43,112 nt of DNA from a virus. The DNA lies in the IMG/VR virus record IMGVR_UViG_3300030419_007499, positions 1 through 43,112 of that record; one strand, given 5' to 3'. The notes below the pieces were generated by a model. It saw only the letters and a program-made list of their open reading frames with translations, had not been told where the DNA came from and made no database searches. Of this stretch, positions 3,001 through 43,008 are shown piece after piece; position 1 is the stretch's first letter, and each line of letters opens with the position of its first letter. The position numbers were made by a program, and so were the translations under genes.

Positions 3001-6000
3001 GTTGCAGACCATTTAGTTCATAAAGGTGACACGGATACTTATCTGGACTTTACTGTAGATAGGTTTAGATTTTTTGCGGGTGGTGTTCAATTGATTGACG
3101 CCCGAGAAGCTAGTACAGATTATGTTAAGATTGGTGATGGTGGTGAGGATGTAAACTTTGTCGTTACTAGTGCCTCAGCAGGAATAGATTATACTCTTGA
3201 GGTAGACGCAGGAAGTTCCACCGTGGGAATCAACTGTGATCCTTTAGATGCTAAAGGTGCTGCGCTTGTTGTTAGTGGAGATGCCAGCATAACGGGCCAA
3301 TTAAAAGCACATTTAGGCATGGGCTTGAAAAATGCCTATTCTCTACACTGGGATAATGAAAACACTAGAATTATAGCGAACCACTCTGCCGATTATATGA
3401 ATTTTGATGTTGGCGGTTACAGTGAAATTCTACATATAGAAGGTGACGGCAGAAAAGTTGGTATTGGTGGTCCATGGAATACAAATCCTGAAGCAAATTT
3501 ACAAGTAAGCGGTGATGCTAGTATAACAGGAGAATTAAAAGTAGCGGGTGGGCCGTTAGGCGTGGTTATAGGATCAAGCGCTAGTACTCCATCTGATACC
3601 TCCAGGACTTTGATGATGTATAGGCAAAATGCTGACTATTACCCTGGCACAGACACTCACTTTGCAGCTTATGTAAAACAGAATACTTTCGGCACTTATG
3701 AAGGGGTCCATTTTAGGTCTCGTGGATATAGATTTGAAAGGCACGATGGCAGTCATTTTGCGTCTATAAACAGAGACGGCGAAATGTTGATCGGTGAGGG
3801 TATTGGCCAGGCTGGCTCGATGCTCACAGTTAGCGGTGATGCTAGTATAACAGGAGAATTAAAAGTTGATGGTAATTTAGTTCTCGTTACCTCTGACCAA
3901 TATTTAGACAATAACTATTTTGTGCATGGGAAAGAAACGGGAGGTACTAACCGACAGCTAATCGGCTTAAATTCTAGCGACAAGGTTAGTATAGACGGAG
4001 CAGGAATTGGTGCTATTTTTGGTGGCTCGGTTGATTGTACGCATTTAACTGTAGACAGTAATCTTAATCATGATGGTGATGCTGATACTTATATTGGTTT
4101 TACAGAGGACAGAATTCGATTAAATGCTGGCGGACTCGAACTGATTGACGCTCGAGAGGCTGGCACAAATTATGTTGCAATCGGAGGGCTAGATGCTAAT
4201 CAAGATGTAAACTTCTTGGTTGGTAGCGCGGTAAACGGCATAGACTACGTTCTTGAAGTGGACGCAGGAAGTTCCACCGTGGGAATCAACTGTGATCCTT
4301 TGGATGCTAAAGGCTCTGCTCTTGTTGTTTCTGGTGACGCTAGTGTAACAGGCGAATTAAATATAGTTGGGCCTCTTACTGCATCTGTAGCAAATGCATC
4401 TCAATTTTATGCTTTAAAAGTTACGCGCTCTAGCTCTACTTTTGTTAGCCCAGATATTTGGGATGGAAACAGTCATGGTGTTGTAGTTGGCGCAAACAGT
4501 AGTCAGCCGACTTTAGTGGTTCACCATGGGGACGAATCAGCTCATGGTGGCCAAGTTGGTATAGGGGATTTTAGGGCTTCTGGTCCAGAGGCAAAATTTG
4601 TTGTAAGTGGCGATGCTAGTATAACAGGAGATTTGAGCATAGGTTCTACGAAAACTATTAAGCACGGTGGCGACGCTGATACTTATATACAATTTGGTAG
4701 TGATTATTTTGCTTTTATTGCTGGTGCTTCTAATTTATTTTCAATAGATGAAGATAATAGTGAGGTTGTTGTCAATGAAGCGGGTGGAAATTTTAATTTC
4801 CGCGTTGAAAGTGATAACGAGGATCATTCATTATATGTCAGGGGTGCGGATGGATATGTTGGAATTGGCACGTCGAATCCAGATGGATCCATGCTTCGAG
4901 TTAATGGTGATGTTGGTATATCGGGACAATTAAGGGTTTACTCAACTAACAACGATGCCGTAAAATTTCAAGGCGACGACCACTGTCGGGTTCAGATTGA
5001 CGGAACGGACAACTCGGAAAAATCTTTAATCTTTAGTGAGGCAGGTACTTATAGGTGGTTAGTGGGCATGGATAATGTAAACCCTGCTGCCGCTTTAGAC
5101 TCTTTTGTCATTAAGCAGGCTGCTGATGGAGCGGAAAGCTTTGTAATAGACACTTCAAATAATGTTGGAATTAGCAATGGCAAACTATTAGTAGGAGAAG
5201 GGAACGGCGCAGAAGCTTTGCTCACTGTTTCTGGCGATGCTAGCATATCAGGAGAACTTAGAACAAAAACTCCTCTTAAAGTTGAAGCAGATACTCCAAC
5301 TTCAGATGCTCATTATTTTAAAATGTCGTATGATAATTCTGTGGGCATTCTTGATGCAAATAGAGGAAAGATGCGGCTACAATCAAATGATGGAGTTATT
5401 TATACAGATGGTGATTCGATTGGGATTGGAACAGCAACTCCAACGCATGAGCTTCATGTCTCTGGCAATACTACTATTGGCAACGCTGACACAGCAAACA
5501 CAACTATAAAAATCGGCCCAGCTTTAGGTACATCAAACAATTATTTCGGCGGAGGAACATTAAGCACAGATTATAGATCGCAAATAACAATTGGTGGACC
5601 TAACCATACGCCAGGAATTAGATTTCAAAATGATCGCTTGAGCAGTTCATATGAAATTTATGCTGATAGCACCGCGTTACATTTTCAATCAATGAATAGT
5701 AACAGGGATTTTGCTTTTAATGGTCATCAAGATTTAAGTAATTCAGTTTGGATAACGCAAGGAGAAGGTCAATTAGGGCTTGGAGTTAGAGAGCCAGAGG
5801 CCAGATTGCATGTTAGCGGCGACGCTAGTATAACAGGAGCGCTAGATGTTGGCGGTGCAACTACTATTGATGATAATCTCACAATAACAGCTAGTAACCA
5901 TTTGTTTGTTAGTCAATATATCAAGCATCTCGGAGACGATGATACATTCATTAATTTTACTTCTGATGAAGTACGAATAGACGCTGGCGGCATTGAGATG

Positions 6001-6546
6001 ATAACATGCAAAGAAGCTGGCACAGATGCTGTTGTTATAAACTCGGCTGGTGTAGACATGGATTTCCGAGTTGAATCCCAAGGCAATGAGAACATGTTTT
6101 ATGTGGATGGCGGAAGCAATCTTGTTGGCTTTGGTACTTCTAGTCCAAGCGCGTCATACACAGTCACAGTAAGTGGTGGACTTGCGGCAGATTATAAGAG
6201 CTTTATTATTAGCCATCCAGACCCCGCAAAACCAGACAAAGATCTTGCATACGGATCATCAGAAACAGACGAACATAATGTATTTGTTCGTGGCAGAGCG
6301 CAAAGCAAAATTATTGACTTGCCAGATTACTGGCCACACTTAATACATGAAGAAAGTATAACGGTTCAATTAACTCCAATAGGAGAACATCAAGAACTAT
6401 ACGTCGAATCAATAAAAGATAATAGAATTTTAATAAATAATAAAAAAGAAAACAAGATAAACTGTTTTTATCTAGTACATGCAGAAAGAAAAGACATTGG
6501 CAAATTAGAAGTAGAACCAGACAAAGGAGGAAAAAGTGCCCAGTAA
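1..6546 (+). CDS. Giant repetitive tail-fibre/adhesin protein, 5'-partial
   Basis: The reading frame is open from base 1 with no start visible, so the gene begins left of the window; at least 2181 residues are present. It consists almost entirely of two alternating motifs: about 15 copies of a VGIGT-like unit (typically NVGIGTxxPxxxLHV) and about 12 copies of SGDASITGEL-like units. In phages such units form long beta-structured fibre stalks. Four copies of a module of about 95 residues (DTYIxF...IDAREAG...VNF...GIDYxLEVDAGSSTVG) are embedded. The last 118 or so residues (from 6190) differ: KSFIISHP, VFVRGR, LPDYWPHLIHEESITVQLTP and a YLVHAERKD tail, a terminal domain I recall from cyanophage structural proteins. 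No peptidase S74 auto-cleavage domain is seen. Likely a host-recognition fibre; the role is inferred from composition and context. Confidence 0.85.
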   Translation, partial: SGDASITGQLSVESLHVHDSNGNAANRFKIEYNGTNGNATVGPDSGGGNTNLLLGTSNGGSYSTKVAIKNDGNVGIGTDTPLSLFNVFGGAGHFNVAGASTTGHHLIVSDGDPTDWRPYAGSTTASVQIQSSSSRGMLFAAKDQGNQDLIFTNGLNISVGATVGTNRGTDIISITEGGDVGITGELKIDDNVGIGTSTPESYSNYKALTISDSVGGQIYFKSTSSSVTAYAGADSNGAYLAAKTNHPLRLRTNNGDKLVIAAGGNVGIGTTSPDTQLDLSQSVDAPLAINIHNQSTNAAADSAISFETQGQIDFSIGLDRSLSAFTMCRSATLGSNEIIRIEPAGTISATTMLIDADQGDVKIAGDLQVSGDLSAVTSGIVADEGGYVSGSSGFFGKVGIGYTENVSDDIGYDARLRVGQNPTNGWAIIAGSDNVGAAPQLTNSLTKVVRIGMPHYTNAEEPFTLLTATSDSSKNDLHLGGGTSYGNAAENIYLRTAPLHDSVKGITALYINKEGQVLAGADAGLTTAAGLGATFTVSGDASITGETRIAGNVGIGVAPSNKLHVEGSASSAYMAYIKNTHASAGYGLLIDAGDDNNVSALAVRDKDGTARMVVRGGGNVGIGTGSPGVKLHLYGAGSPQFRIQDSTNNCILKAYAQDSDAFLGTHSNHNLNIGTNNATNITVEAGGNVGIGTSAPDRYLHVHSGSAGSVTALSNSTAVLESSSHAALEFLSPNAKNSIIYMREVGGAYGYINYVHSTPAMNFSVGGGANMITLDAAGHVGIGEETPEATLQVDGDASITGELKTKEIVVKDTVPVIKLESSNSQSRIDFKDGTNTQATIGLNDTHGDSFNIALSSSSASLTNDVKLIVKQDGKVGIGTTGPGSLLNVSGSNPTVRINCNGAELGDGNDTAMYSFGIDSNFDFAGIKFDYTDRVASGLALFTSPAYGYPISITPSTDKDIFLNVTDGGHVGVATASPEAKLHVNGDASITGELRVNGEIVVADHLVHKGDTDTYLDFTVDRFRFFAGGVQLIDAREASTDYVKIGDGGEDVNFVVTSASAGIDYTLEVDAGSSTVGINCDPLDAKGAALVVSGDASITGQLKAHLGMGLKNAYSLHWDNENTRIIANHSADYMNFDVGGYSEILHIEGDGRKVGIGGPWNTNPEANLQVSGDASITGELKVAGGPLGVVIGSSASTPSDTSRTLMMYRQNADYYPGTDTHFAAYVKQNTFGTYEGVHFRSRGYRFERHDGSHFASINRDGEMLIGEGIGQAGSMLTVSGDASITGELKVDGNLVLVTSDQYLDNNYFVHGKETGGTNRQLIGLNSSDKVSIDGAGIGAIFGGSVDCTHLTVDSNLNHDGDADTYIGFTEDRIRLNAGGLELIDAREAGTNYVAIGGLDANQDVNFLVGSAVNGIDYVLEVDAGSSTVGINCDPLDAKGSALVVSGDASVTGELNIVGPLTASVANASQFYALKVTRSSSTFVSPDIWDGNSHGVVVGANSSQPTLVVHHGDESAHGGQVGIGDFRASGPEAKFVVSGDASITGDLSIGSTKTIKHGGDADTYIQFGSDYFAFIAGASNLFSIDEDNSEVVVNEAGGNFNFRVESDNEDHSLYVRGADGYVGIGTSNPDGSMLRVNGDVGISGQLRVYSTNNDAVKFQGDDHCRVQIDGTDNSEKSLIFSEAGTYRWLVGMDNVNPAAALDSFVIKQAADGAESFVIDTSNNVGISNGKLLVGEGNGAEALLTVSGDASISGELRTKTPLKVEADTPTSDAHYFKMSYDNSVGILDANRGKMRLQSNDGVIYTDGDSIGIGTATPTHELHVSGNTTIGNADTANTTIKIGPALGTSNNYFGGGTLSTDYRSQITIGGPNHTPGIRFQNDRLSSSYEIYADSTALHFQSMNSNRDFAFNGHQDLSNSVWITQGEGQLGLGVREPEARLHVSGDASITGALDVGGATTIDDNLTITASNHLFVSQYIKHLGDDDTFINFTSDEVRIDAGGIEMITCKEAGTDAVVINSAGVDMDFRVESQGNENMFYVDGGSNLVGFGTSSPSASYTVTVSGGLAADYKSFIISHPDPAKPDKDLAYGSSETDEHNVFVRGRAQSKIIDLPDYWPHLIHEESITVQLTPIGEHQELYVESIKDNRILINNKKENKINCFYLVHAERKDIGKLEVEPDKGGKSAQ
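3019..3303 (+). repeat. Fibre module copy 1 (about 95 aa)
   Basis: Encodes HKGDTDTYLDFT through SGDASITGQL. Bases 3205-3245 are identical over 41 nt to 4261-4301 in copy 2, and bases 3250-3287 are identical over 38 nt to 16628-16665 in the second giant gene. Confidence 0.85.
4069..4359 (+). repeat. Fibre module copy 2
   Basis: Encodes HDGDADTYIGFT through SGDASVTGEL. The core LEVDAGSSTVGINCDPLDAKG is the same as in copy 1, with a 41-nt identical DNA block at 4261-4301. Confidence 0.85.
4663..4932 (+). repeat. Fibre module copy 3, diverged
   Basis: Encodes HGGDADTYIQF through NGDVGISGQL. The first half matches the other copies; the second half has FRVESDNEDHSLYVRGADG in place of the DAGSSTVG core, then VGIGTSNP. 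Confidence 0.75.
5926..6177 (+). repeat. Fibre module copy 4, diverged
   Basis: Encodes HLGDDDTFINFTSDEVRI through TVTVSGG. This is the last module before the C-terminal domain and resembles copy 3 (FRVESQGNENMFYVDGG). Confidence 0.75.
6525..6530 (+). promoter_or_regulatory. Strong Shine-Dalgarno that sets a GTG start
   Basis: AGGAGG lies five bases before GTG at 6536, inside the 3' end of the upstream fibre gene. It supports initiation at GTG, 11 bp before the upstream stop ends. It is one of the few clear Shine-Dalgarno sites in the window. Confidence 0.75.
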
Positions 6547-24691: not shown

Positions 24692-25687
24692 ATGGACATT
24701 AGTTTTGTAATAATCACTGGAGGCCAAAAGCCAGAACACATAAATCGGCTTCTCAAAAGCATAAAAAAACAAAATATTAAAAATTTTGAATGCATCATTA
24801 TTGGCAACACAAAAGATTTAAAAATAGATTTGTTTTCAATGGGGTTAACAGCTCCGCAATCAAACAAGATTAAAACAATTGAGAACAACGAGGCCGCACA
24901 AAAAGGCGAACTAGGCGTTATGAGAAACACGGGCTGCAGTCACGCCCAGTTTGATCATATAGTGATATTAGATGACGACCTTCTCTTGACAAAAGATTGG
25001 TATAGTAATTTGTTAAAATTTAAAGAAAGCAACCCCGATTTTGATATTGTTACCTGTCAAGTTAGAGTTCCAGATGGTGGAAGATACTGGGATCACGCTT
25101 GCTATCAAAGCCCAAAAAGAGGACATGTAACCTTAGAGGCTAATGAAGATGATGACCATTTATATATGTCTGGAGGCTGCTCTTGGTTAATGAAAAAGCG
25201 TGTTTTTGAAAAAATCCAATACGATTCTTCTGAAATATACAATATGAGCAACTTAAAAGATTACTCAGAGGGTAAGCATAACGAAGATACGTACTTTTCA
25301 AAACGATGCAGAGACTCAGGATTTAAAATAGTACATAACCATGCTTCAGTTTCATTTCACGATGATCCCACATACACAAACTTAGGAAGGTTTGCTAGAC
25401 GAAGGGAAAACGGAAGAACTCAAGAATGGGTCAAGGCAATGGATTTAGATTTTCCGCCAGAAGTTATTGTTCAATTCTCTGCTGCGCTATACAATTCTGG
25501 ATTTCCAGCTGAAGCTGCGGATACACTAAGGATGGGGTTAGAAAGATATATTAAAAACCCCACGCTACAAGACAATTGGCAAAAGCTTTCAGATGCCCAC
25601 GGAGGGCAATTATCTGATTCCAGATGGTCAATGGACGCAGATCCATTGTTTAAAGAAACTTTAAAATGGTTAAAAGATGAGTCGTGA
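24692..25687 (+). CDS. Glycosyltransferase family 2-like, 331 aa
   Basis: Inverting GT-A enzyme by pattern. It has a first strand DISFVIITGGQKPEHINRLLKS, a nucleotide-binding region to IIGNT, then GVMRNTGCSHAQFDHIVILDDDLLL with the metal-binding Asp cluster at residues 94-96. MSGGCSWLMKKRVFE and HNEDTYFSKRCRDSGF follow, with ED as candidate catalytic base. A C-terminal region of about 80 residues after FARRRENG is helical and of unknown role. Soluble. It starts two bases after the HTH gene's stop and overlaps the next gene by 11 bp. Donor and acceptor unknown. Confidence 0.8.
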   Translation: MDISFVIITGGQKPEHINRLLKSIKKQNIKNFECIIIGNTKDLKIDLFSMGLTAPQSNKIKTIENNEAAQKGELGVMRNTGCSHAQFDHIVILDDDLLLTKDWYSNLLKFKESNPDFDIVTCQVRVPDGGRYWDHACYQSPKRGHVTLEANEDDDHLYMSGGCSWLMKKRVFEKIQYDSSEIYNMSNLKDYSEGKHNEDTYFSKRCRDSGFKIVHNHASVSFHDDPTYTNLGRFARRRENGRTQEWVKAMDLDFPPEVIVQFSAALYNSGFPAEAADTLRMGLERYIKNPTLQDNWQKLSDAHGGQLSDSRWSMDADPLFKETLKWLKDES

Positions 25688-26402
25688 AATAATTCAAAGC
25701 TTATGGATAGGAAGCGAGCTTTCCCCAGTCGAAAAGCTTTGTATATCTTCGTATATAAAAAACGATCATGAGTTCCACTTGTATTCCTATAACGATATAG
25801 ACGGTCTACCAGCAGACTGTATCGTTAAAGATGCCTCAGAAATCCTCCCAAGAGAAGATATTTTCTCGTATAACGTTGGATTAGGCAAAGGAAGTTATTC
25901 TGCTTTTTCAAATTATTTCCGCTACAAGCTATTAACCTTAAAAGGAAATTGGTGGACTGATACTGATATTGTTTGTTTAAAAAAGTTTGATTTTGAAGAC
26001 GAATATGTTTTTGCGAGCGAAAAAACATCCTCAGATGGACAACACATAACCTCTGGGATAATAAAAGCCCCCATATCAAGCAATTTCGCTGAGAGATGCT
26101 ACAATTTTTGCCGCGAACAAGATAAAAACACCTTACAATGGGGAGTTGTCGGCCCAAAACTAGTATCTAAAACAGTTAAAGAATTACAAATGGAAAATTT
26201 TGTCAAACCTTGGAAGTTTTTTAACCCTATTGGCTTTGAGCAATTAGGTATGATATTTGATGAAACTTTTGGCGACATGAAATTAAACGATTCATATACA
26301 ATTCATTTATGGAACGAGATGTGGAGAAGATATAACCTAGATAAGAATAAAAAGTATGAGGAAAACTGCTTATTCGAAAAACTTAAGAAAAAATATTTAT
26401 GA
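25677..26402 (+). CDS. GT32-like glycosyltransferase with DXD motif, 241 aa
   Basis: Resembles the DXD-containing sugar transferases (Gly_transf_sug / alpha-1,4-GlcNAc transferase type). IIQSLWIGSELSPVEKLCI opens the protein. The stretch SAFSNYFRYKLLTLKGNWWTDTDIVCL places the DxD at Asp95 and Asp97, with the usual 'yaSDyfRYkiLyeyGGiYlDtDv' layout. HITSGIIKAPISSNF and YTIHLWNEMWRRY near the C-terminus match the conserved His-Trp segment of the family. No membrane helix. It overlaps the preceding gene by 11 bp and the next by 4 bp (ATGA). A retaining enzyme if the family assignment holds. Confidence 0.75.
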   Translation: MSREIIQSLWIGSELSPVEKLCISSYIKNDHEFHLYSYNDIDGLPADCIVKDASEILPREDIFSYNVGLGKGSYSAFSNYFRYKLLTLKGNWWTDTDIVCLKKFDFEDEYVFASEKTSSDGQHITSGIIKAPISSNFAERCYNFCREQDKNTLQWGVVGPKLVSKTVKELQMENFVKPWKFFNPIGFEQLGMIFDETFGDMKLNDSYTIHLWNEMWRRYNLDKNKKYEENCLFEKLKKKYL

Positions 26403-27361
26403 AAATAGCTTATTTATGTGATAAAGAGCATTACTTAAAAAAGATGTCCAGAGTTCGCTTTCATTCAATGGAAGCAGTTCAGAAACTATGCGGCAAAGAT
26501 AATTTTTTATGGACAGGGCCAAATTGGGAAAACTGGGACGATGACCAAACAGTGGATGAAAACTTAAAACAAAACAGCTTTACGCCAGATTTAATCGTAG
26601 GATATAAACCGCTAGAAATTAAAGGATTTTCCGATTCAATATATACTAAATGCGTCAGGTACAATGAAATGTATGACGATGATTGGACTTTAAAAGAAAT
26701 TAATGAATCCGCAGCAGACATTGTTGTTTGCCACCACAAAAATGACTTAGAGGATTGGCAGGGCGTTAAATTTCGCAAACAAGTAAAGCTTATTAATATT
26801 CCCCACTGCGCAGAAAGAACAATTTTCAAAGATTATGAATTACCAAAAACTCATGACGTTTTATTAGTTGGAGCTATCAACGTAACAAGTAAATTAGGAC
26901 AACATTACCCACTACGTCAAAAAATGCTCGAGGTTCTCGCAGATATGTCAGATGACTACAAAGTTTCTGTTTACAGGCATCCAGGATATGTCCTAGGCGA
27001 TGCTCATGAAAATAGATATGCGATAGACTTTGCAAAAGCAATAAATTCTGCAAAAATTTGTGTTACATGTTCTGGCGCACCAAAAAGCAGATTCGGAAAA
27101 TACGTAGAGATACCCGCATGCAAGACAGCAATAGCAGCAGATATACCAAACGAAGAACAGGAAACTTTTAAGAAATTTGTTATTGAAATTAATGTTGACG
27201 ATTCAAATAATACAATTGTCAATAAGCTAAAGAAATATCTAGATAATCAAGAGGAGCTTAAGAAAGTTACAGACAGAGGTTGGCTTTTGATGAATAAGTA
27301 TACCCAAGATTGGTATGCTTCTGTTTTTATTAACAAAATTACAAAAATTTTAAACACATAA
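26399..27361 (+). CDS. GT-B glycosyltransferase-like protein, 320 aa
   Basis: Weakly recognisable two-domain GT-B layout, closest in pattern to proteins ending in a Glyco_trans_1_2 domain. The N-terminal half opens MKIAYLCDKEHYLKKMSRVR and contains PDLIVGYKPLE and DIVVCHHKNDL. The C-terminal half has HDVLLVGAINVTSKLGQHYPLR, then INSAKICVTCSGAPKSRFGKYVEIPACKTAIAADIP, the usual donor-site position with Glu in EIPA, and an ending helix segment with NKYTQDWYASVF. Soluble. ATGA overlap with the gene before and one base to the next. Could be a glycosyltransferase or a related sugar-phosphate transferase. Confidence 0.6.
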   Translation: MKIAYLCDKEHYLKKMSRVRFHSMEAVQKLCGKDNFLWTGPNWENWDDDQTVDENLKQNSFTPDLIVGYKPLEIKGFSDSIYTKCVRYNEMYDDDWTLKEINESAADIVVCHHKNDLEDWQGVKFRKQVKLINIPHCAERTIFKDYELPKTHDVLLVGAINVTSKLGQHYPLRQKMLEVLADMSDDYKVSVYRHPGYVLGDAHENRYAIDFAKAINSAKICVTCSGAPKSRFGKYVEIPACKTAIAADIPNEEQETFKKFVIEINVDDSNNTIVNKLKKYLDNQEELKKVTDRGWLLMNKYTQDWYASVFINKITKILNT

Positions 27362-27362
27362 A

Positions 27363-28646
27363 ATGGAAAACTCGAAGACCACCAAAGAATCAATTAAGAA
27401 AAATATATACGCAAACGTTCAAAAGTACTTTGAAAATATCTCATTTGAAGAATTAAAGCCTTCTAAATGGAAAGTTCCTATTGGTGGTGGATTTTATGAC
27501 CATAATGAGGTTAATTCGGTTATCGAATGCTATCTTAATGGTTCATTATCAATACAAAAACCAGTAGCTAAATTTGAAGAAAATTTTTCTTCTTACATAG
27601 GATGTGAATATGGTATAGCTACCAACTCTGGAACGTCAGCAAATATCCTAGCACTAAACGCTTTGATTGAATCTGGGGAACTTGTGCCAGGAGACAAGGT
27701 CGCTATTCCAGCAACAACTTTTATTAGTGTAGTTACGCCAATTTTACAACTTGGGTTAGTTCCAGTTTATGTAGACATTAAAGAAGACCTAAATATGGAT
27801 ATGGAGGAGTTGCAAAGAGTTTTACTTTTCGAGGACAATATAAAATGCGTTATGGTTGTTCACACATTAGGTTTTCCCGCAGACGTTGAAACATTACTAA
27901 AGCTATCAAAAACTTATAGCTTTAAAATTATTGAAGACTGTTGTGAATCACACGGTGCGGCGATTAATGGAAAAAAAATTGGCAGCTACGGCGACATATC
28001 AACTTGGAGCTTTTATGTAGCACATCACATGACAACCGCTGAGGGCGGGATGGTTCTCACTAACTCAGAGAGGTATAAAACTATATTGTCAGAACTTAGA
28101 GAGTTTGGCAGGCTAAAGAGCTATGAAGGAGAACGCTTTGGTTACACCAAAGACAACCTAGTAGATTTTGATGAGAGATATGTGTTCCACAGAATTGGCT
28201 GGAATTTCAGGATGGCGGATGCTCCCGCTTCCTTCGGTATCGAGCAACTTAGAAAACTTGATAAAATGAACGCTACAAGAAAAAGCAATGCTAAATTCTT
28301 AATAGACAATTTAAAAAAACATAAAGATCTAATACTGCCAGATTACAGCAGCGACGAGCATGAAATTACTTACTACTCATTTCCGATCACGATTAAGCAG
28401 GGCAGTAGAATTAACAGAAAATCATTTGTTCAGCATTTAGAGTCTAATGGGATAGAAACAAGAGCCATAATGTGCGGAACTTTACCAGATCAACCAAGCT
28501 TAAAAAATTCTGTTCATATTATTGCTGGCGATTTAAAAATCAGCAGGCATGTTAGAGATAATGCTTTTTTTATTGGTTGTCATCCAATGTTAAAACAAGA
28601 AGACCTACAGCATGCAGTCGACATTATCGACGAATACTTAAAATAA
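27363..28646 (+). CDS. DegT/DnrJ-family PLP enzyme with catalytic Lys replaced by His (RfbH/ColD-type 3-dehydratase-like), 427 aa
   Basis: Fold type I PLP enzyme acting on a nucleotide-linked 4-keto sugar. Family marks: NSGTSANILALNAL, DKVAIPATTFISV, EDCCESHGA, GSYGDISTWSFYVAHHMTTAEGGM, and FRMADAPASFGIEQLRKL. The Schiff-base Lys of aminotransferases is His221 here. His at this place is known in the C-3 dehydratases RfbH/DdhC/AscC (E1) and ColD, which remove a 3-hydroxyl instead of adding an amino group. Length (427) fits RfbH-type enzymes, but the Cys cluster that holds their [2Fe-2S] centre, expected just after this motif, is absent. A 3-deoxy or 3,6-dideoxy sugar product is inferred. The next gene, an SDR, could be the matching reductase or epimerase. 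Confidence 0.8.
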   Translation: MENSKTTKESIKKNIYANVQKYFENISFEELKPSKWKVPIGGGFYDHNEVNSVIECYLNGSLSIQKPVAKFEENFSSYIGCEYGIATNSGTSANILALNALIESGELVPGDKVAIPATTFISVVTPILQLGLVPVYVDIKEDLNMDMEELQRVLLFEDNIKCVMVVHTLGFPADVETLLKLSKTYSFKIIEDCCESHGAAINGKKIGSYGDISTWSFYVAHHMTTAEGGMVLTNSERYKTILSELREFGRLKSYEGERFGYTKDNLVDFDERYVFHRIGWNFRMADAPASFGIEQLRKLDKMNATRKSNAKFLIDNLKKHKDLILPDYSSDEHEITYYSFPITIKQGSRINRKSFVQHLESNGIETRAIMCGTLPDQPSLKNSVHIIAGDLKISRHVRDNAFFIGCHPMLKQEDLQHAVDIIDEYLK

Positions 28647-28653
28647 TTTAAAA

Positions 28654-29658
28654 ATGAAAAACATATTAGTTACAGGCGGCACAGGCGCTATTGGTTCAAA
28701 TTTAGTAAAAAAATTACTAACAAAAGAAGACACTAATAAATTAGTGATCCTCGATGACAATTCTTCTGGTTACCACAATAACCTAATACAAAATGATAAA
28801 ATAATTTTCGTAAAAGGTAATGTATGTGATAATTGGGTAGTTGAACAAGCTTTTTCTCATGATATTACTCATGTTTATCACCTAGCTGCAAATTTTGCAA
28901 ATCAAAGTTCTGTAGATTTTCCAGAAAAAGACTTAATGACAAACGGTATAGGAATCATTAAACTATTAGAAGCCTCTGTAAACAACAATGTTAAAAAGTT
29001 TTTGTATTCATCATCTTCATGTGTTTATAAGCCTGTCGACTCTCCATTTGTCGAACATGGGCCTATAGCCTTGACAACTCCATATGCAATAACCAAGCTT
29101 TTGTCCGAATATTATGTAACTTTTTATAATAAATTTAAAGGACTACCAGCAGTGGTAGTTAGATATTTCAATAATTATGGCCCTGGAGATTATCCAGGGA
29201 AATTCAGAAGCGTAATATGTAATTTTTTCTGGAAAGCGTTAAGAAATGAACCTCTCGTAATAACTGGAGATGGAAGTGAGACAAGGCCATTTACTTTTGT
29301 TGACGATATTGTGGACGGAACAATAACTGCGATGGAAAAAAGCAAAGACAAAGTTGTTGACAGTTTTTACTCCCACCCAATTGAAGAAGATGACAATTTA
29401 ATTTACAATATAGCTAATCCTGAAGTTATAAAAATTAAAGACTTGGCAGAAAAAGTTAACGATGTCTGCGGAAATACCGCTGGCATAGAGTATCAACCAA
29501 GAAGAAATTGGGACGTAATTCCCAATAGATCTGTTTGTGTAAAAAAAGCAAATGAAGAATTAGGCTTTAGTCCAAAAATCAACATAGACGAGGGATTAAA
29601 AAAGACTTTAGAGTGGTTCTCTAGTCAGGAATTTAAAAACGAAAACACAAGATTTTAA
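28654..29658 (+). CDS. NAD-dependent nucleotide-sugar epimerase (extended SDR), 334 aa
   Basis: Rossmann glycine motif TGGTGAIGS at residues 7-15; VYHLAANF (NAD contact); catalytic Ser in YSSSSCVYKP (119-122); Tyr144 and Lys148 in PYAITK; RYFNNYGPGDYPG; and ETRPFTFVDDIVDG. The absence of a TDEVYG-like segment argues against a 4,6-dehydratase and for a UDP-glucose/GlcNAc 4-epimerase-like or 4-keto-reducing enzyme. Length is normal for the family. It lies 7 bp after the DegT-family gene, with an A-rich gap and no clear Shine-Dalgarno. It may reduce or epimerise the product of that enzyme, or supply galacto-configured UDP-sugars. Confidence 0.85.
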   Translation: MKNILVTGGTGAIGSNLVKKLLTKEDTNKLVILDDNSSGYHNNLIQNDKIIFVKGNVCDNWVVEQAFSHDITHVYHLAANFANQSSVDFPEKDLMTNGIGIIKLLEASVNNNVKKFLYSSSSCVYKPVDSPFVEHGPIALTTPYAITKLLSEYYVTFYNKFKGLPAVVVRYFNNYGPGDYPGKFRSVICNFFWKALRNEPLVITGDGSETRPFTFVDDIVDGTITAMEKSKDKVVDSFYSHPIEEDDNLIYNIANPEVIKIKDLAEKVNDVCGNTAGIEYQPRRNWDVIPNRSVCVKKANEELGFSPKINIDEGLKKTLEWFSSQEFKNENTRF

Positions 29659-29661
29659 ATT

Positions 29662-30219
29662 ATGATTTGGAATGAAATTGTTTGTCTGGGTGACTCATTG
29701 ACATATGGGTCTCGAGATGATTTTGGCAGGTCTTACCCGTTAGAGCTTAATAACATACTTACAGAAAGAACTGGAGAGTATTACATATGCCATAATCATG
29801 GCGTACCCGCAGAAACAAGCTCTGAACTATTAAGGCGAACATGGCAAGCATTAAACTCCCATCAGGCGGCAAGATTATCCTTGATCATGATCGGCACTAA
29901 TGATACTCAAGCAAACATTCCTCCAGACATATACGAAGACAATTTAAAACAAATTATAACAATGTGTAAGATTTGCAAAACTAGACCTATTTTAGCGACG
30001 TTGCCCGATTTAGGATTTACTCCCCTATATTTAAACAACCCAAATAATATAAACTTATACAATAAAAAAATAAACTCTATAGCCGATAAAATGAATTTAG
30101 AAGTTTGTAACATGAGAGGAATGGAAAAATATTATATAGACAATGTCCACGTTAATCATAAAGGCAACTTAGAAATGGCAAAAAGATGGGCAGATACAAT
30201 ACTAAGTATAAATGCGTAA
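29662..30219 (+). CDS. SGNH/GDSL hydrolase (probable sugar O-acyl esterase), 185 aa
   Basis: Block I GDSLTYG (residues 10-16, nucleophile Ser12); block II Gly in NHGVPAETS; block III GTND (78-81, oxyanion Asn80); block V DNVHVNHKG (Asp160, His163). This is a full catalytic set for an SGNH esterase at normal length. No signal peptide, so it acts in the cytoplasm, unlike most bacterial GDSL esterases that work on the envelope. In this operon it probably removes or transfers an O-acetyl group on a sugar intermediate. Three bases separate it from the epimerase gene, and it overlaps wecB by 8 bp. Confidence 0.85.
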   Translation: MIWNEIVCLGDSLTYGSRDDFGRSYPLELNNILTERTGEYYICHNHGVPAETSSELLRRTWQALNSHQAARLSLIMIGTNDTQANIPPDIYEDNLKQIITMCKICKTRPILATLPDLGFTPLYLNNPNNINLYNKKINSIADKMNLEVCNMRGMEKYYIDNVHVNHKGNLEMAKRWADTILSINA

Positions 30220-31330
30220 AATAGTACACATTATAGGGGCCAGACCTAATTTTATGAAGGCCGCTCCATTAATTTCTGAATTAAAAAAGAATCGCAAATT
30301 TCGACAAATAATAGTACATACTGGTCAGCATTTTGATAAAAAAATGTCTGATGTTTTTTTATCTGAATTAAAAATACCAAAACCAAAGTACAAATTTTCC
30401 TTAAAATCAAAAACAGGCAACGCTCAAATTGCTGAAATTATGATTAAGCTAGAGGAAATTTTACTAAAAGAAAAGCCTAAATTAGTTGTTGTTTATGGAG
30501 ACATAAACTCCACATTAGCAGCTTCACTTACAGCCAACAAATTAAAACTCAAACTTTGTCACATAGAGTCAGGACTAAGGAGTTTTGACAAAAATATGCC
30601 CGAAGAAATTAATCGAATAATTACAGACTCTTTGTCTGATTTTCATTTTGTCACAGAGAGGTCAGGCACCCAAAATTTATTAAGAGAAGGTCACAACAAA
30701 AACTCTATTTTTTTTGTTGGAAACACAATGATAGATTCTGTAAAAAAGTTTTTAGATAATAATTCTAGCTCAGATTTTAAGCCTCCGTTTTCGTCTGGTT
30801 GTGCACATGAACCCTTCTTCAAAAAAGATCCGTATGCCATCTGCACTTTCCACCGACCAAGTAACGTAGACACAAAACAAGCACTTTTAAAGATTACAGA
30901 AATCATAAAATGGCTATCACAAGATATAAACTTAGTTTTTCCAATCCACCCAAGAACAGAAAACGCACTCAAGAAGCATAAACTTTTAGAAAATTTGAAA
31001 AAAAATAAGAATATCCTTTTAAGTCCTCCTTGCGATTATGGTAATTTTTTGTTTTTAATAAAACATGCAAATTTAGTAGTTACAGATTCTGGAGGAATAC
31101 AAGAAGAATGCTCATACCTAAACACTCCTTGTCTAACACTAAGAAGAAATACAGAGAGACCTGTAACAATTTCTAGAGGCAGCAATATTTTAGTTGATTC
31201 TCTAGAAGAAATATGCGGGCATTTTGACTCGATAAAAAATGAAACTTTTAAAAAGTCAAAAAATATTAAATTTTGGGATGGCAAGGCTTCAGAACGCATA
31301 GCAAAAATTATATATGAAAAATTATCCTAA
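30212..31330 (+). CDS. wecB: UDP-N-acetylglucosamine 2-epimerase, non-hydrolysing (WecB-like), 372 aa
   Basis: Interconverts UDP-GlcNAc and UDP-ManNAc. The N-terminus IIGARPNFMKAAPLI is of the WecB type, not NeuC. It continues with VHTGQHFDKKMSDVF, VVVYGDINSTLAAS, HIESGLRSFDKNMPEEINR, FFVGNTMIDSV, HPRT and TDSGGIQEECSYLNTPCLTLR. These cover the GT-B-like fold and its UDP site; length is as expected. It could feed a ManNAc or ManNAcA residue (the latter with the dehydrogenase at 42169), or a nonulosonic acid pathway with the NeuB-like enzyme at 37691 if free ManNAc is released. It overlaps both neighbours (8 and 17 bp). Confidence 0.92.
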   Translation: MRKIVHIIGARPNFMKAAPLISELKKNRKFRQIIVHTGQHFDKKMSDVFLSELKIPKPKYKFSLKSKTGNAQIAEIMIKLEEILLKEKPKLVVVYGDINSTLAASLTANKLKLKLCHIESGLRSFDKNMPEEINRIITDSLSDFHFVTERSGTQNLLREGHNKNSIFFVGNTMIDSVKKFLDNNSSSDFKPPFSSGCAHEPFFKKDPYAICTFHRPSNVDTKQALLKITEIIKWLSQDINLVFPIHPRTENALKKHKLLENLKKNKNILLSPPCDYGNFLFLIKHANLVVTDSGGIQEECSYLNTPCLTLRRNTERPVTISRGSNILVDSLEEICGHFDSIKNETFKKSKNIKFWDGKASERIAKIIYEKLS

Positions 31331-36175: not shown

Positions 36176-37119
36176 ATTTTTTAGCCCTAGAAATGACTTT
36201 TTTGCGCTATTTTCTTCCACTTATTATTTGCGGAAATAAAAGAAACATAAAGTCAACAGTTTTAGTAGAGCGCAATAATAAGTATAACTGCCCGATAAAA
36301 AACGCAAAACACTTAGAATCTTTATCAGATAAATATAATTTTAATGTTCGGTATGCAAGCAAAGCAAACAAGGATATAACTTTCTTAATTGAAGGTGTTG
36401 GCGCCAACCTAACTAATGCCAAAAAAGTTTCAATGACCTACATGACAGACTATACACTTTCATGGAAAAAATATTGGAGCGACATAGACCACTGCATATT
36501 TCCATCAAAATGGTTTGCTGAATTTATTAAAAAAGAAAAAGATGAAAAATCATTGTTCCTAGGAAGTCCGAAGTATGATCTAAAACTCAACAAAGAGGAA
36601 CTTTTTAAAAAATACAACTTAAGTCACGAGTTCAAATACGCGTTTATACCTCTTCCAAGATCTAGAGATTTAAATTTAGTTAATTTATCTTTTGTTTATA
36701 ATTTTTTACGCAACAAAGGATACAAAATTATCACAAAGTCAAGAGGAAAAGATAATTATAAAGGAGATGGCGATTTTAATTTTTCTGATACATCATGGTT
36801 TCCTCATGATTCAATGGAGTTAATAAGCATATCAGACTTGGTAATAAACTTTGATTCTACCTGCATTAAAGAATGCGTAATGGCGAGAAAAAAAGTTATT
36901 AATTTTAACGTTAAGCCTTTTAAGCAATTGTTGCCAGAACTATACAATGAGAAATACTCCGCAAATATAAAATCCGACTTTTGGAACGAAGACAACTTAA
37001 ATAAGCATTATGAAAGAATTTCAACCTCCAACGCTTCAAGCTTTGATCCTGTCATTGAAAAATATTTATTTAAGACTGGAAGTTCTGCCAGAATATTAGA
37101 TTATTTTGGTATAAAGTGA
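36172..37119 (+). CDS. Putative GT-B fold transferase (CDP-glycerol-transferase/epimerase-like C-terminus), 315 aa
   Basis: Not firmly recognised. The C-terminal half has a GT-B look: KYAFIPLPRSRDLNLVNLSF, YKIITKSRGKDNY, then MELISISDLVINFDSTCIKECVMARKKVINFNVKPF, which parallels the 'aDlvi...dSS...Ea...gkpvi' donor segment of CDP-glycerol, KDO and epimerase-like GT-B proteins. The N-terminal half contains TYMTDYTLSWKKYWSDIDHCIFPSKWF. The first 20 residues are hydrophobic but read as a first Rossmann strand/helix rather than a membrane anchor. ATGA overlap upstream and GTGA overlap with neuA. Probably a glycosyl- or polyol-phosphate transferase of the pathway. Confidence 0.5.
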   Translation: MNFLALEMTFLRYFLPLIICGNKRNIKSTVLVERNNKYNCPIKNAKHLESLSDKYNFNVRYASKANKDITFLIEGVGANLTNAKKVSMTYMTDYTLSWKKYWSDIDHCIFPSKWFAEFIKKEKDEKSLFLGSPKYDLKLNKEELFKKYNLSHEFKYAFIPLPRSRDLNLVNLSFVYNFLRNKGYKIITKSRGKDNYKGDGDFNFSDTSWFPHDSMELISISDLVINFDSTCIKECVMARKKVINFNVKPFKQLLPELYNEKYSANIKSDFWNEDNLNKHYERISTSNASSFDPVIEKYLFKTGSSARILDYFGIK

Positions 37120-37679
37120 ACATTTTAGCAATTATCCCCGCAAGAGGCGGAAGCCAAAGACTACGCAACAAAAATATATACCCCTTATGGGGAAAACCAA
37201 TGATTTACTGGGCAATACAAGCCTGTAAACAATCAAAATTTAACATTAAAGTATGTGTAAGCACCGAAAGCGAAGAAATATCGAATATATCTCAAGAACT
37301 TGGGGCTACAGTACATAAAAGAGACCCAAAGCTTGCGGATCACAAAACCTATAAACAGGCAGCGGTTAGATCTGCTGCAGAATGGTATGAAAAGGTAAAT
37401 GGCAAACAAGACATTTTTATATCCTTACAAGCCAATTCTCCACAAATAAAAAATAAAGATCTTGACAAAGGTATAGAGATTTTGCTAGAATACCAAAAAG
37501 ACGAAATATTTAGCGTCGATTCCAATTTAATGCAAAATGCTGCTTTTAGAGTCTTTAAAGGAGACTATGTATACCAAGAAGATCTAAGCACTAATTGTGG
37601 AGCCTGCGTTTGTGAATTACATGATGTGCACACTTTAGATGACATAAAGTATCTAGAGTCAGGCTTAGACACAATATAA
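37116..37679 (+). CDS. neuA: CMP-nonulosonate cytidylyltransferase-like (NeuA family), short, 187 aa
   Basis: Activates a nonulosonic acid (sialic, legionaminic or similar) or Kdo-like sugar with CTP. The N-terminal CTP site IIPARGGSQRLRNKNI and GKPMIYWAIQACKQS are clear, as are VCVSTESEEISNISQELGA and VHKRDPKLADHKTYKQAAV. The 'LQPTSP' motif reads LQANSP. Length 187 is below the usual 225-230, with the C-terminal part shortened. The start is GTG overlapping the upstream TGA. The next gene is a NeuB homologue, which supports a nonulosonic acid over Kdo. Confidence 0.8.
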   Translation: MNILAIIPARGGSQRLRNKNIYPLWGKPMIYWAIQACKQSKFNIKVCVSTESEEISNISQELGATVHKRDPKLADHKTYKQAAVRSAAEWYEKVNGKQDIFISLQANSPQIKNKDLDKGIEILLEYQKDEIFSVDSNLMQNAAFRVFKGDYVYQEDLSTNCGACVCELHDVHTLDDIKYLESGLDTI

Positions 37680-37690
37680 CATAACAACAA

Positions 37691-38371
37691 ATGACAAAAA
37701 CTTACATCATATCAGAGCTTTGCGGACAATGGGGAGGCTCAATGAGTCGAGCTAAAGAAATGATTGACCAATCTAAAATCGGAGGAGCAAATGCGGTAAA
37801 GGTTCAATTATGGGATACTTATAAAATGCCAGGAGACAATAGAGAAAAATGGGAATACCTCGTGATGAGTAAAGATCAGTTTTTTGAATTAAAGGATTAT
37901 GCGGACAAAGTTGGTATTGATTTTTTTGCTTCACCTTTTGACTCCGAAAGGTTTAGTTGGGTGCTAGAAGCTAATCTTAAAATAAACAAAATAGCAAGTT
38001 CTGTATTAGAATGGAATTTTGATTTGTGCGAGAATATGGTTTCATCAGGATTAAGAACTTTTTGTTCACTTGGAAAATGGAATAAAGATAAATTACCGTT
38101 TAATAATGATAACGTAGAATACTTTCACTGTTTAGCTGAATACCCACATTCAGAAGAAAGAGCAATATCAAAAATGCCTACAAACCTAACAGGTTACAGC
38201 GACCATTCAATTGGGATTGGAGCCTGTATCGAAGCAGCGAGTCGTGGAGCTACTTTAATAGAAAAACACTTTACCCTAGATAAAAATTTACAATGTGAAA
38301 CAGAGTCTGCACATTCATGTTCTATGGACTTGGATGAATTAAAAAAACTAACTGAATTCTGTAAAACATGA
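37691..38371 (+). CDS. neuB: N-acetylneuraminate synthase-like (NeuB family) without the SAF domain, 226 aa
   Basis: Condenses PEP with a ManNAc-type aldose to a nonulosonic acid. TIM-barrel marks: IISELCGQWGGSMSRAKEMI, GGANAVKVQLWDTYK, DFFASPFD, KIASS, YFHCLAEYPHSEERA, GYSDHSIGIGACIEAASRGATLIEKHFTLD. These match the NeuB catalytic domain. The family is normally about 340-350 residues and carries a C-terminal antifreeze-like SAF domain that caps the partner's active site. Here the protein stops after the barrel (HSCSMDLDELKKLTEFCKT), so the cap is missing. The intact barrel and tight operon fit argue against random decay. Confidence 0.8.
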   Translation: MTKTYIISELCGQWGGSMSRAKEMIDQSKIGGANAVKVQLWDTYKMPGDNREKWEYLVMSKDQFFELKDYADKVGIDFFASPFDSERFSWVLEANLKINKIASSVLEWNFDLCENMVSSGLRTFCSLGKWNKDKLPFNNDNVEYFHCLAEYPHSEERAISKMPTNLTGYSDHSIGIGACIEAASRGATLIEKHFTLDKNLQCETESAHSCSMDLDELKKLTEFCKT

Positions 38372-39105
38372 AAAACAAGCTAAACATAGCTTTGATCACA
38401 GCTGGCAATCCAAGACATCATTATTTTAAAAAAAAGATTTCTTCGGTAGTTGATGTCGGGCTAGTTATTGAAGAGCCAAAAAAATCAACGCCGCAAGAAA
38501 AAGAAATATCATTTTTTAAAAATTCCTTTTTAGATAATAACTGGAATTCCAAAAGAAACAAGCAAGTTAATATAAGTGATAAAACCCTAAACAACGTTGA
38601 AACACAAAAAATTTTAGAAGATTTTTCCCCTGATTATATTTTTACTTTTGGTTGCGGACTACTTAAAGACAATATTATAAAAACTGCGTCAAAATGCATA
38701 ATAAACATTCATACTGGGCTCACTCAACACCACAGAGGCGTTGAGGGGCCGCTATTTGCAATATATGAAGAAGATGCCAGCATAATAGGCGCGACAATTC
38801 ATCAAGTCACAACAGGAATAGATTCTGGCCAAGTTATTGCACAAGACAGGCCTAAACTAAGACTAGACGATAACTTAGATTTGTTATTTTATAGAGCCTG
38901 CAAATGCGGAATAGATCTTTTACAAAAAAATATTATTGATATAATTTTGGGTAAAGCTAAATTTCAAACCCTAGACAAAGGAAAGTTATACCAAAAGAAA
39001 GATGTCACAAATGAAGTGATGACTTCTGCAAATTCAAAAGTTGGCGCCGTACTCTATAATTATTATGATTTAGATGGCGCGGCAGATCGGTTTATATATT
39101 ATTAA
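38368..39105 (+). CDS. Sugar N-formyltransferase (formyl_trans_N family), 245 aa
   Basis: Transfers a formyl group from N10-formyltetrahydrofolate to an amino sugar. The catalytic triad of the family is present: Asn113 and His115 in IINIHTGLTQHHRG, and Asp152 in TGIDSGQVIAQ. GATIHQVTTG is the family's GxTxH segment. It resembles the N-terminal catalytic domain of methionyl-tRNA and sugar formyltransferases (for example the 4-amino-4,6-dideoxyhexose enzymes) and is too short and too odd in its N-terminus to be Fmt. It implies an N-formyl sugar in the glycan and needs an amine made by deacetylation or by an aminotransferase. ATGA overlap with neuB. Confidence 0.85.
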   Translation: MKNKLNIALITAGNPRHHYFKKKISSVVDVGLVIEEPKKSTPQEKEISFFKNSFLDNNWNSKRNKQVNISDKTLNNVETQKILEDFSPDYIFTFGCGLLKDNIIKTASKCIINIHTGLTQHHRGVEGPLFAIYEEDASIIGATIHQVTTGIDSGQVIAQDRPKLRLDDNLDLLFYRACKCGIDLLQKNIIDIILGKAKFQTLDKGKLYQKKDVTNEVMTSANSKVGAVLYNYYDLDGAADRFIYY

Positions 39106-41550: not shown

Positions 41551-42172
41551 CCCAATAGTCTCAATTATAGTTACTAATTACAATTATGGAAAGTTTTTGC
41601 ATCGTTGCCTAAGAAGCTGTTTCTCGCAAAAATTTTTAAACTATGAGGTTTTAGTTGTTGACGACTGCAGTACGGATAATTCAATTGAAATACTTCAGCC
41701 CTTTTTACAATCAAACAACAATTTAAAGCTCATTAATAATCAAGAAAATCTTGGAGTCGCAGAATCCGCAAACCTTGCAATCAACGCCAGTAGAGGCCAA
41801 TTTTTTATCAGAGTTGACTCTGATGATTTTGTAGTATCAGATATGTCTTATATTATGTACAAGTTCCTCGAGGCAAATCATTATAGCTTTGGAGTTTCCT
41901 GTGACTATTATTTAGTCGATAACTATGAAGATAAAATAGAAAGAAAATCTGCCGAGGAATTTCCTATATCTTGCGGAATTATGTACAGAAGAGACCTGTT
42001 TTTAGAATTAGGAGGATATAATCCCAAAATGAGACATAGGGAAGAAGAGGAGTTGAGAAAAAGGCTTGGAGAAAAATATAGAGTAGACTATTTAAAAATG
42101 CCTTTTTACAGATACAGGATGCATGACTGCAATAAAACAAAAACAAAAGAATATTTAGAAACAAAAGTATGA
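41543..42172 (+). CDS. Glycosyltransferase family 2, small, 209 aa
   Basis: Start set at ATG 41543 with GAGG at 41533-41536; a longer frame from 41519 would reach further into asnB. It has the standard GT2 N-terminus: VSIIVTNYNYGKFLHRCLRS, YEVLVVDDCSTDNSIEIL, NLGVAESANLAINASRGQFFIRVDSDD (D-x-D). CGIMYRRDLFLELGGYNPKMRHREEEELRKRL supplies the catalytic E-E region. It is compact and ends YRMHDCNKTKTK. Probably adds a single sugar. ATGA-type overlap with the next gene. Confidence 0.88.
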   Translation: MSNPIVSIIVTNYNYGKFLHRCLRSCFSQKFLNYEVLVVDDCSTDNSIEILQPFLQSNNNLKLINNQENLGVAESANLAINASRGQFFIRVDSDDFVVSDMSYIMYKFLEANHYSFGVSCDYYLVDNYEDKIERKSAEEFPISCGIMYRRDLFLELGGYNPKMRHREEEELRKRLGEKYRVDYLKMPFYRYRMHDCNKTKTKEYLETKV

Positions 42173-43008
42173 ATGTAGGAATTATAGGAAGAGGATTCGT
42201 TGGCAACGCCATATTTCAAGGATTAAACCATTATTATGATATTAAAGTTTATGATGTCGACCCCAAAAAGTCAACGCATAATTTCGACGAGGTAATTAAT
42301 TCTGATGTGGTTTTCTTATCCGTGCCAACCCCCATGCACAAAGACACTGGCGAATGCGACTTGTCTTATATAGAATCCGTCTTTGACAAAGTCAAAGAAA
42401 CAAACGGAAGAAATGAATCTTGCACTTTTGTCATCAAGTCTACCGTGCCAGTTGGAACTACCGAACAGCTAAATGAAAAGTATGATCAAAAGATTAAAAT
42501 TATACACTCTCCAGAGTTTTTAACCGCAAGAACCGCAATAACAGATTTCATATGTCCGTCTCGACATATTATTGGCGGACACCCCGCAAGAGGCACAGAG
42601 AAGTTGAAAGAAATTTATGAGTCGAGATTTCCAGGAGTGCCCTGCTACGTAATGACAAGTAAAGAGTCTGAATTTGTAAAATATTTTGCAAATTGTTTTT
42701 TTGCTACAAAAGTTTCATATTTTAATGAAATGGCTATTTTTGCGAAAGCTCATGGCCTAAATTGGGAAAATGTCATTGAAGGAGTTATGTCTGATGGAAG
42801 AATTGGAATTAGCCATTATCAAGTTCCTGGCCACGACGGAAATCCTGGATTTGGTGGAACCTGTTTCCCCAAAGATATCAATGCTCTAATTAAAAGCTTT
42901 GAAAATGTGGGAACTGAGCCATTACTGTTAAAAGCGGCATGGGAAAGAAATCTTTTAGTAAGAAATGAGAAGGACTGGGAAAGTTCAAAGTCGGCAGTCA
43001 GCGAATAA
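42169..43008 (+). CDS. UDP-sugar 6-dehydrogenase-like without C-terminal domain, 279 aa
   Basis: NAD-dependent oxidation of a UDP-hexose to UDP-uronate (UDP-glucose or UDP-ManNAc dehydrogenase family). Rossmann loop [64 protein letters not shown], and the thiol nucleophile Cys232 in [10 protein letters not shown]. Family members have 390-450 residues; this one ends soon after the central domain and lacks the C-terminal UDP-binding domain. Short versions may bind substrate through the dimer partner or a separate chain. WecB upstream makes a WecC-like role possible; the SDR that follows suggests UDP-GlcA use. Confidence 0.8.

Follow-up and report, generated by a model that had tools for sequence, protein, structure and literature searches.

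To our knowledge, only E1, ColD and SpnQ have been well studied among the sugar 3-dehydratases. In these three enzymes a Lys-to-His change accompanies 3-dehydration, and in the first part of the reaction PMP forms a Schiff base and the C3 hydroxyl is lost, the His acting as the base; ColD then finishes by hydrolysis, without a cluster and with glutamate-driven regeneration of PMP, whereas E1 and SpnQ use an iron-sulfur cluster and a reductase (PMC8987622). The sugar aminotransferases PseC, LegC, ArnB and GDP-perosamine synthase have the same fold and PLP site but possess the Schiff-base Lys. Here we describe a phage protein that has the His of the 3-dehydratases and lacks three of the four cysteines that bind the cluster in E1.

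A DegT-family protein with His221 and without three of the four cluster cysteines

The stretch of DNA analysed (hereafter the window) comprises positions 1 to 43,112 of the virus record IMGVR_UViG_3300030419_007499. The record is 71.7 kb long and contains tail-fibre genes, in agreement with the description of the gene as phage-encoded in an earlier, sequence-only reading. On the forward strand, positions 27,363–28,646 encode a protein of 427 residues with an ATG start and an uninterrupted frame. The protein matched the Pfam family DegT_DnrJ_EryC1 (PF01041) over profile positions 5–359 of 360 (268.5 bits; cut-off 19.8). The best NCBIfam model was the RfbH equivalog NF011936, with a score of 323 bits that lies below its cut-off of 423; the best PDB sequence matches were E1 (227 bits), 9WVY (202 bits) and ColD (171 bits). 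An AlphaFold model, for which 40 sequences served as input, yielded a mean pLDDT of 93.9 and a pTM of 0.92. Foldseek ranked E1 first against this model (TM 0.89, 31% identity), followed by ColD (0.84) and GDP-perosamine synthase (0.80; 26–27% identity), the nearest solved folds thus being those of two experimentally studied 3-dehydratases.

The active-site motif of the protein is TWSFYVAHHMTTAEGG, in which residue 221 is the first His of the HH pair (AHHMTTAEGG; codon at 28,023–28,025, that is, 27363 + 3*220). phmmer alignments to PDB sequences placed His221 opposite H220 of E1 (chain 3BCX) and the catalytic His of ColD, H188, and the H220K mutant chain 3BB8 shows a Lys in the same column. The residue that the earlier reading had put at the Schiff-base Lys position is therefore the exact one, and the alignments revealed no other Lys at the PLP site. 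In an alignment of 40 homologues, residues S89, G90, N94, D138, E191, D192, C194, S216, H221, E227, G228, G229, R246, Q295 and R367 are invariant and N281 is nearly so; accordingly, the cofactor site looks intact. The invariance of His221, the RfbH and Pfam scores, and a relative of 57% identity that shares both the His and the lack of these cysteines demonstrate that the pattern is not due to chance.

Cysteines occur only at positions 56, 81, 162, 193, 194, 371 and 406, which leaves 176 residues after C194 free of cysteine and bears out the claim that none lies in the roughly 60 residues following His221. Of the RfbH/E1 four-Cys set (C193, C251, C253 and C261), the window protein matches only the C193 position. 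In the family alignment, K, Y and E stand at the positions of C251, C253 and C261, respectively, and the E1 cluster-loop segment is aligned with REFGRLKSYEGERFGYT. The position of the C-x-C ... C cluster-binding loop of E1/RfbH is thus taken by the cysteine-free segment LKSYEGERFGYTK (residues 251–263; 28,113–28,151, from 27363 + 3*250 onward). The counterpart of the fourth ligand, C194, is not evidence of a cluster because ColD and every cluster-free relative carry a Cys there. In all details that can be checked in the sequence, the wording of the earlier reading was right.

Compared with ColD (GDP-4-keto-6-deoxy-D-mannose 3-dehydratase; PDB 2GMS, 2R0T and 3B8X), the window protein shares the DegT fold, the catalytic His and the absence of a [2Fe-2S] cluster (27–28% identity). 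It differs by an N-terminal extension of about 30 residues and by an Ala at the position preceding the His; the ColD counterpart is Ser187, and PDB 3GR9 carries mutations of both this Ser and H188. E1/RfbH/AscC (CDP-4-keto-6-deoxyglucose 3-dehydrase) has the same fold, His and similar length, but C251, C253 and C261 are missing from the window protein and a Fer2 reductase from its record. The earlier reading had contrasted an RfbH-like length with a ColD-like absence of the cluster. Length is not diagnostic of RfbH: cluster-free His proteins on the ColD side also reach 406–437 residues, so that length and cluster are not coupled and no hybrid can be identified. Cluster-free His enzymes are numerous, and an RfbH-like protein without a cluster is not unique, since the combination recurs in several other branches and already has a solved structure in PDB 9WVY, a putative NDP-4-keto-6-deoxyglucose-3-dehydratase that is likewise His-type and cluster-free, with a similar loop length at the cluster-Cys site. 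A literature search retrieved no publication for this entry.

Relatives and phylogenetic placement

Viral contigs scanned with the single sequence yielded no relative of the protein; relatives were recovered by alignment-based scans. The closest, from another phage (L180), is the one with 57% identity. Profile scans yielded further viral relatives with identities of 42–46% (L016, L181–L184 and L189) and five cellular ones with 40–44%, four from Parcubacteria/Patescibacteria (L096, L098, L099 and L100) and one from Methanocellales (L097). All examined members of the clade lack three of the four cluster cysteines. Unexpectedly, Asn follows the catalytic His in the other members (AHN), whereas the window protein and its L180 relative have AHH. 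The clade profile scored relatives at 528–749 bits and other His-type proteins at about 440 bits or less. Sampling of the phylum to which L098 belongs (380 genomes) and of that of L097 (197 genomes) gave one clade-level match each, in both cases the genome already known, and the next-best genome in these samples scored ∼430 bits. The subfamily is therefore rare. Among the best 80 genome loci retrieved, eight were cluster-free and the rest displayed the RfbH cysteine set. L187 was left out of one alignment owing to a stop codon in its stretch.

The careful tree comprised 61 rows, with five Lys aminotransferases as the outgroup; a motif search recovered one of six Lys-type loci retrieved for this purpose, so that the root depends on five Lys sequences. 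Support for the window clade (10 rows: the window protein, L180–L183 and L096–L100) was 96/83. The clade is placed outside a branch (98/90) in which RfbH with its relatives (97/94) is united with the ColD group (100/98). The window clade was also set apart from the ColD group (98) in a quick tree comprising 77 rows. AU tests gave p values of 0.072 for joining the clade with ColD and 0.080 for joining it with RfbH. Since these values stay just above 0.05, placement as a third lineage outside RfbH and ColD is favoured by the rooted tree but not proven; with this caveat, the suggestion of a possibly distinct subfamily has gained support. PDB 9WVY forms a long branch (2.2 changes per site), and its grouping with the window clade (52/14) is unsupported.

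Seven further loci (L190, L192, L207, L208, L213, L219 and L220) form a separate cluster-free branch near RfbH. They have SHQ or AHQ at the active site and a one-residue insertion before the GG, as in SHQMTALGTGG, and the branch looks like a case of secondary cluster loss.

The operon and candidate sugar substrates

The gene is embedded in a glycan cluster. Three glycosyltransferase-like genes (24,692–27,361, forward strand; Pfam Glycos_transf_2, Gb3_synth and, just under the cut-off, Glyco_trans_1_2) run end to start into it. Downstream, on the same strand, follow a 334-residue Mth375/WbmF-type SDR (28,654–29,658; best PDB match 6PMH, 253 bits), a GDSL/SGNH hydrolase that could be a sugar deacylase (29,662–30,219; Pfam Lipase_GDSL_2) and a non-hydrolysing UDP-GlcNAc 2-epimerase of the WecB type (30,212–31,330; TIGR00236, 313.9 bits, cut-off 210). 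The same four-gene order, from the DegT gene to the 2-epimerase, is present in the L180 phage at 57, 61, 42 and 45% identity, respectively, and the remaining genes of the two records are mostly unmatched. This gene context differs from those of both known pathways, E1/RfbH and ColD.

The operon SDR displays Ser-Ser-Cys and Tyr-x3-Lys (YAITK) signatures, with a Cys in place of the Glu of dehydratases and decarboxylases. Mth375 was likened by its authors to the 3,5-epimerase WbmF and its active-site Cys, and the WbmF/Mth375 group is discussed as epimerase and/or oxidoreductase (PMC12820599). Because of the Glu-to-Cys exchange, the SDR is unlikely to produce a 4-ketosugar and would fit a later step, as a candidate epimerase and/or 4-ketoreductase. 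No dedicated 4,6-dehydratase adjoins the window gene. This sets it apart from ColD, which is paired with GMD and Fcl/ColC. A GMD-like gene is found in the same record, 22 kb from the DegT gene (record positions 50,867–51,922); its best PDB match is the GDP-mannose dehydratase 2Z1M (286 bits), its TIGR01472 score of 341.7 bits is below the cut-off of 415, and it has a Ser in place of the catalytic Thr. A clear GMD (429.9 bits) is present in the L180 record. The latter phage carries in addition a second, ColD-like His-type DegT beside another SDR (L280 17,332–18,510, record G007; FSFYFAHHMSTIEGG), and for this reason the GMD is not assignable with confidence to the window-type enzyme.

The relatives provide a different clue. 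In nine loci (L016, L096, L097, L098, L100 and L181–L184) the DegT gene has a UXS/ArnA-type SDR no more than about 3 kb away, and most of these loci also harbour a UGDH-like dehydrogenase nearby; L099 has neither within its retrieved DNA. The UXS signature (Ser/Thr118, Glu120, Arg144, Tyr147, Lys151, Asn176 and Arg277) is intact in all seven partner SDRs tested (L096, L097, L098, L100, L181, L182 and L183). Based on this adjoining SDR with its full signature, the 4-ketosugar of the relatives, a 4-keto pentose, would most likely come from decarboxylation of UDP-glucuronate. A further Fcl-like or related SDR is present in four cellular loci (L097, L098, L099 and L100). For the window enzyme itself, the GMD-like gene makes GDP-4-keto-6-deoxymannose a possible substrate, and a UDP-4-ketosugar, suggested by the relatives' gene context, is equally possible.

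Several other features of these records were observed. Directly upstream of three phage DegT genes lies a gene (L183 and L184, each 4,998–6,005; L016, 69–1,082) whose product closely resembles plant GDP-mannose 3,5-epimerase, the L183 protein scoring 306 bits to PDB 2C59. Short nucleotide-sugar dehydrogenase-like proteins of 260–280 residues with only the NAD-binding and central domains recur in these phages (L183 7,270–8,073 and 9,950–10,774; L181 4,241–5,023). The one in the window (42,169–43,008, forward strand; 279 residues; Pfam UDPG_MGDP_dh_N and central domain, without the C-terminal UDP-binding domain) is 32–40% identical to the short UGDH-like proteins adjoining the relatives' DegT genes. 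In the virus record, a GalE/WbpP-like SDR (L002 466–1,386; record 42,965–43,885) contains a stretch of undetermined bases (four X residues) that reflects an assembly gap or masking. The record also encodes a protein with a prepilin-type N-terminal methylation motif (L003 8,717–9,697; record 68,716–69,696), a possible hint to the host, as such proteins are presumably common in Verrucomicrobia and allies.

In the window's glycan cluster, 37,116–39,105 and 30,212–31,330 together comprise genes for a CMP-sugar transferase, a 226-residue NeuB-like protein, a formyltransferase and the UDP-GlcNAc 2-epimerase, which suggests that a nonulosonate-like route may be present too. The 2-epimerase, NeuB and CMP-transferase genes brought up the idea of a legionaminic/pseudaminic-type route with the window enzyme as LegC or PseC. 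We set this idea aside: the adjoining SDR is devoid of the dehydratase residues and, on chemical reasoning, loss of the hexose C3 hydroxyl would remove the nonulosonate ring oxygen.

Proposed reaction and competing explanations

The window enzyme is probably a cluster-free, PMP-dependent NDP-4-ketosugar 3-dehydratase with a ColD-type ending, a reading based on the biochemistry of ColD and E1. PMP would condense with the C4 ketone of the NDP-4-ketosugar to a Schiff base; His221 would then abstract the cofactor's C4' proton, with departure of the C3 hydroxyl. Hydrolysis of the resulting enamine would yield a 3-deoxy-4-keto sugar and ammonia, and glutamate would restore PMP, so that an iron-sulfur reductase would not be needed. 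Epimerisation and/or reduction of this 4-keto product would subsequently fall to the SDR, and the adjoining glycosyltransferases would attach the sugar to a surface glycan. Retention of the His together with the other PLP-site residues, and the closeness of the fold to E1 and ColD, argue for a 3-dehydratase; the kept His combined with the absent cluster makes the ColD-type ending the best reading. It is also consistent with the operon-partner SDR with its Ser-x-Cys and YxxxK signatures, and with the absence of a Fer2 (2Fe-2S ferredoxin) domain, as in the E3 reductase, from six phage records including that of the window. This last point carries little weight because virus records may be incomplete and the enzyme might draw on a reductase of the host. 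Against a ColD-like reading stand the position of the subfamily outside the ColD clade, the Ala before His221 and the missing 4,6-dehydratase neighbour. Of the earlier proposal of a C-3 deoxygenase making a 3-deoxy or 3,6-dideoxy sugar, the deoxygenase part is thus the best explanation, while a 3,6-dideoxy product is not favoured over alternatives.

Alternatively, the enzyme could be an RfbH/E1 that secondarily lost its [2Fe-2S] cluster and now relies on another electron donor or is weak. RfbH is the best single-family match and is favoured by pairwise scores, E1 is the top structural match, the L190–L220 branch beside RfbH seems to show just such a loss, and the AU test does not reject union with RfbH. 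We nevertheless regard this explanation as unlikely: the RfbH score stays under the equivalog cut-off, the whole window clade is cluster-free, and its place outside RfbH plus ColD in the Lys-rooted tree fits a cluster that was never present. A still smaller probability attaches to an aminotransferase or dual enzyme that makes a 4-amino sugar with His in place of Lys. SpnQ, a His enzyme, transaminates with PLP and glutamate when the reductase is absent (PMC8987622), and the AHN of most clade members resembles the Lys-Asn of the aminotransferases in our set (Natronon and Halocat); however, ColD and E1 show no transamination under the same conditions and E1 H220K is non-catalytic (PMC8987622), and the window protein has His-His with no other Lys at the site. 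Phage genomes do carry decaying cargo, but that the gene is an inactive or functionless passenger is highly improbable in view of its full-length open frame, conserved active site and confident model, and of a four-gene order kept at 42–61% identity in a second, otherwise dissimilar phage.

Two proposals concern the pathway. In a GDP-colitose-like route, which is compatible with a cluster-free 3-dehydratase, the product of the GMD-like gene would feed the window enzyme and then the adjoining SDR. GMD-like genes in both the window record and the L180 phage speak for it, as does a cassette of adjacent GMD, Fcl-like SDR and cluster-free His-type DegT genes in the cyanophages S-CAM7 (L005 2,025–5,083) and ACG-2014f (L006 1,975–5,092). 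The route remains a tentative possibility, because the GMD-like gene is 22 kb away, the L180 GMD could be used by the second His-type DegT, most other clade loci have an ArnA/UXS-like SDR rather than GMD beside the DegT gene, and the operon SDR is not Fcl-like. The cyanophage cassette is itself an apparent phage-borne GDP-colitose-like route; the ACG-2014f GMD scores 559 bits, above the cut-off, the genes are annotated as hypothetical protein, nucleotide-sugar epimerase or aminotransferase, and a literature search on phage colitose routes returned nothing on point. Slightly more doubtful is a route in which a third His-type lineage would turn UDP-glucuronate-derived UDP-4-ketopentoses into UDP-3-deoxypentoses, with the window enzyme as a phage branch whose partner SDR has changed. 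If true, this would be the ArnA/ArnB logic with the Lys aminotransferase swapped for a His dehydratase.

The branch to which the window enzyme belongs was previously unnamed and is found in phages, Patescibacteria and a Methanocellales-type archaeon. Whether the iron-sulfur cluster was gained or lost could be decided by such a cluster-free lineage, placed outside the two main groups; if the lineage is indeed that deep, the ColD-like hydrolytic mechanism would be ancestral and the cluster of E1 a later addition. The gene neighbourhood hints at UDP-4-ketopentose or other UDP-ketosugars, substrates not known for 3-dehydration. The locus is, moreover, a further indication that entire rare-sugar cassettes are carried by phages, some of them annotated only as 'hypothetical protein' or 'aminotransferase'.
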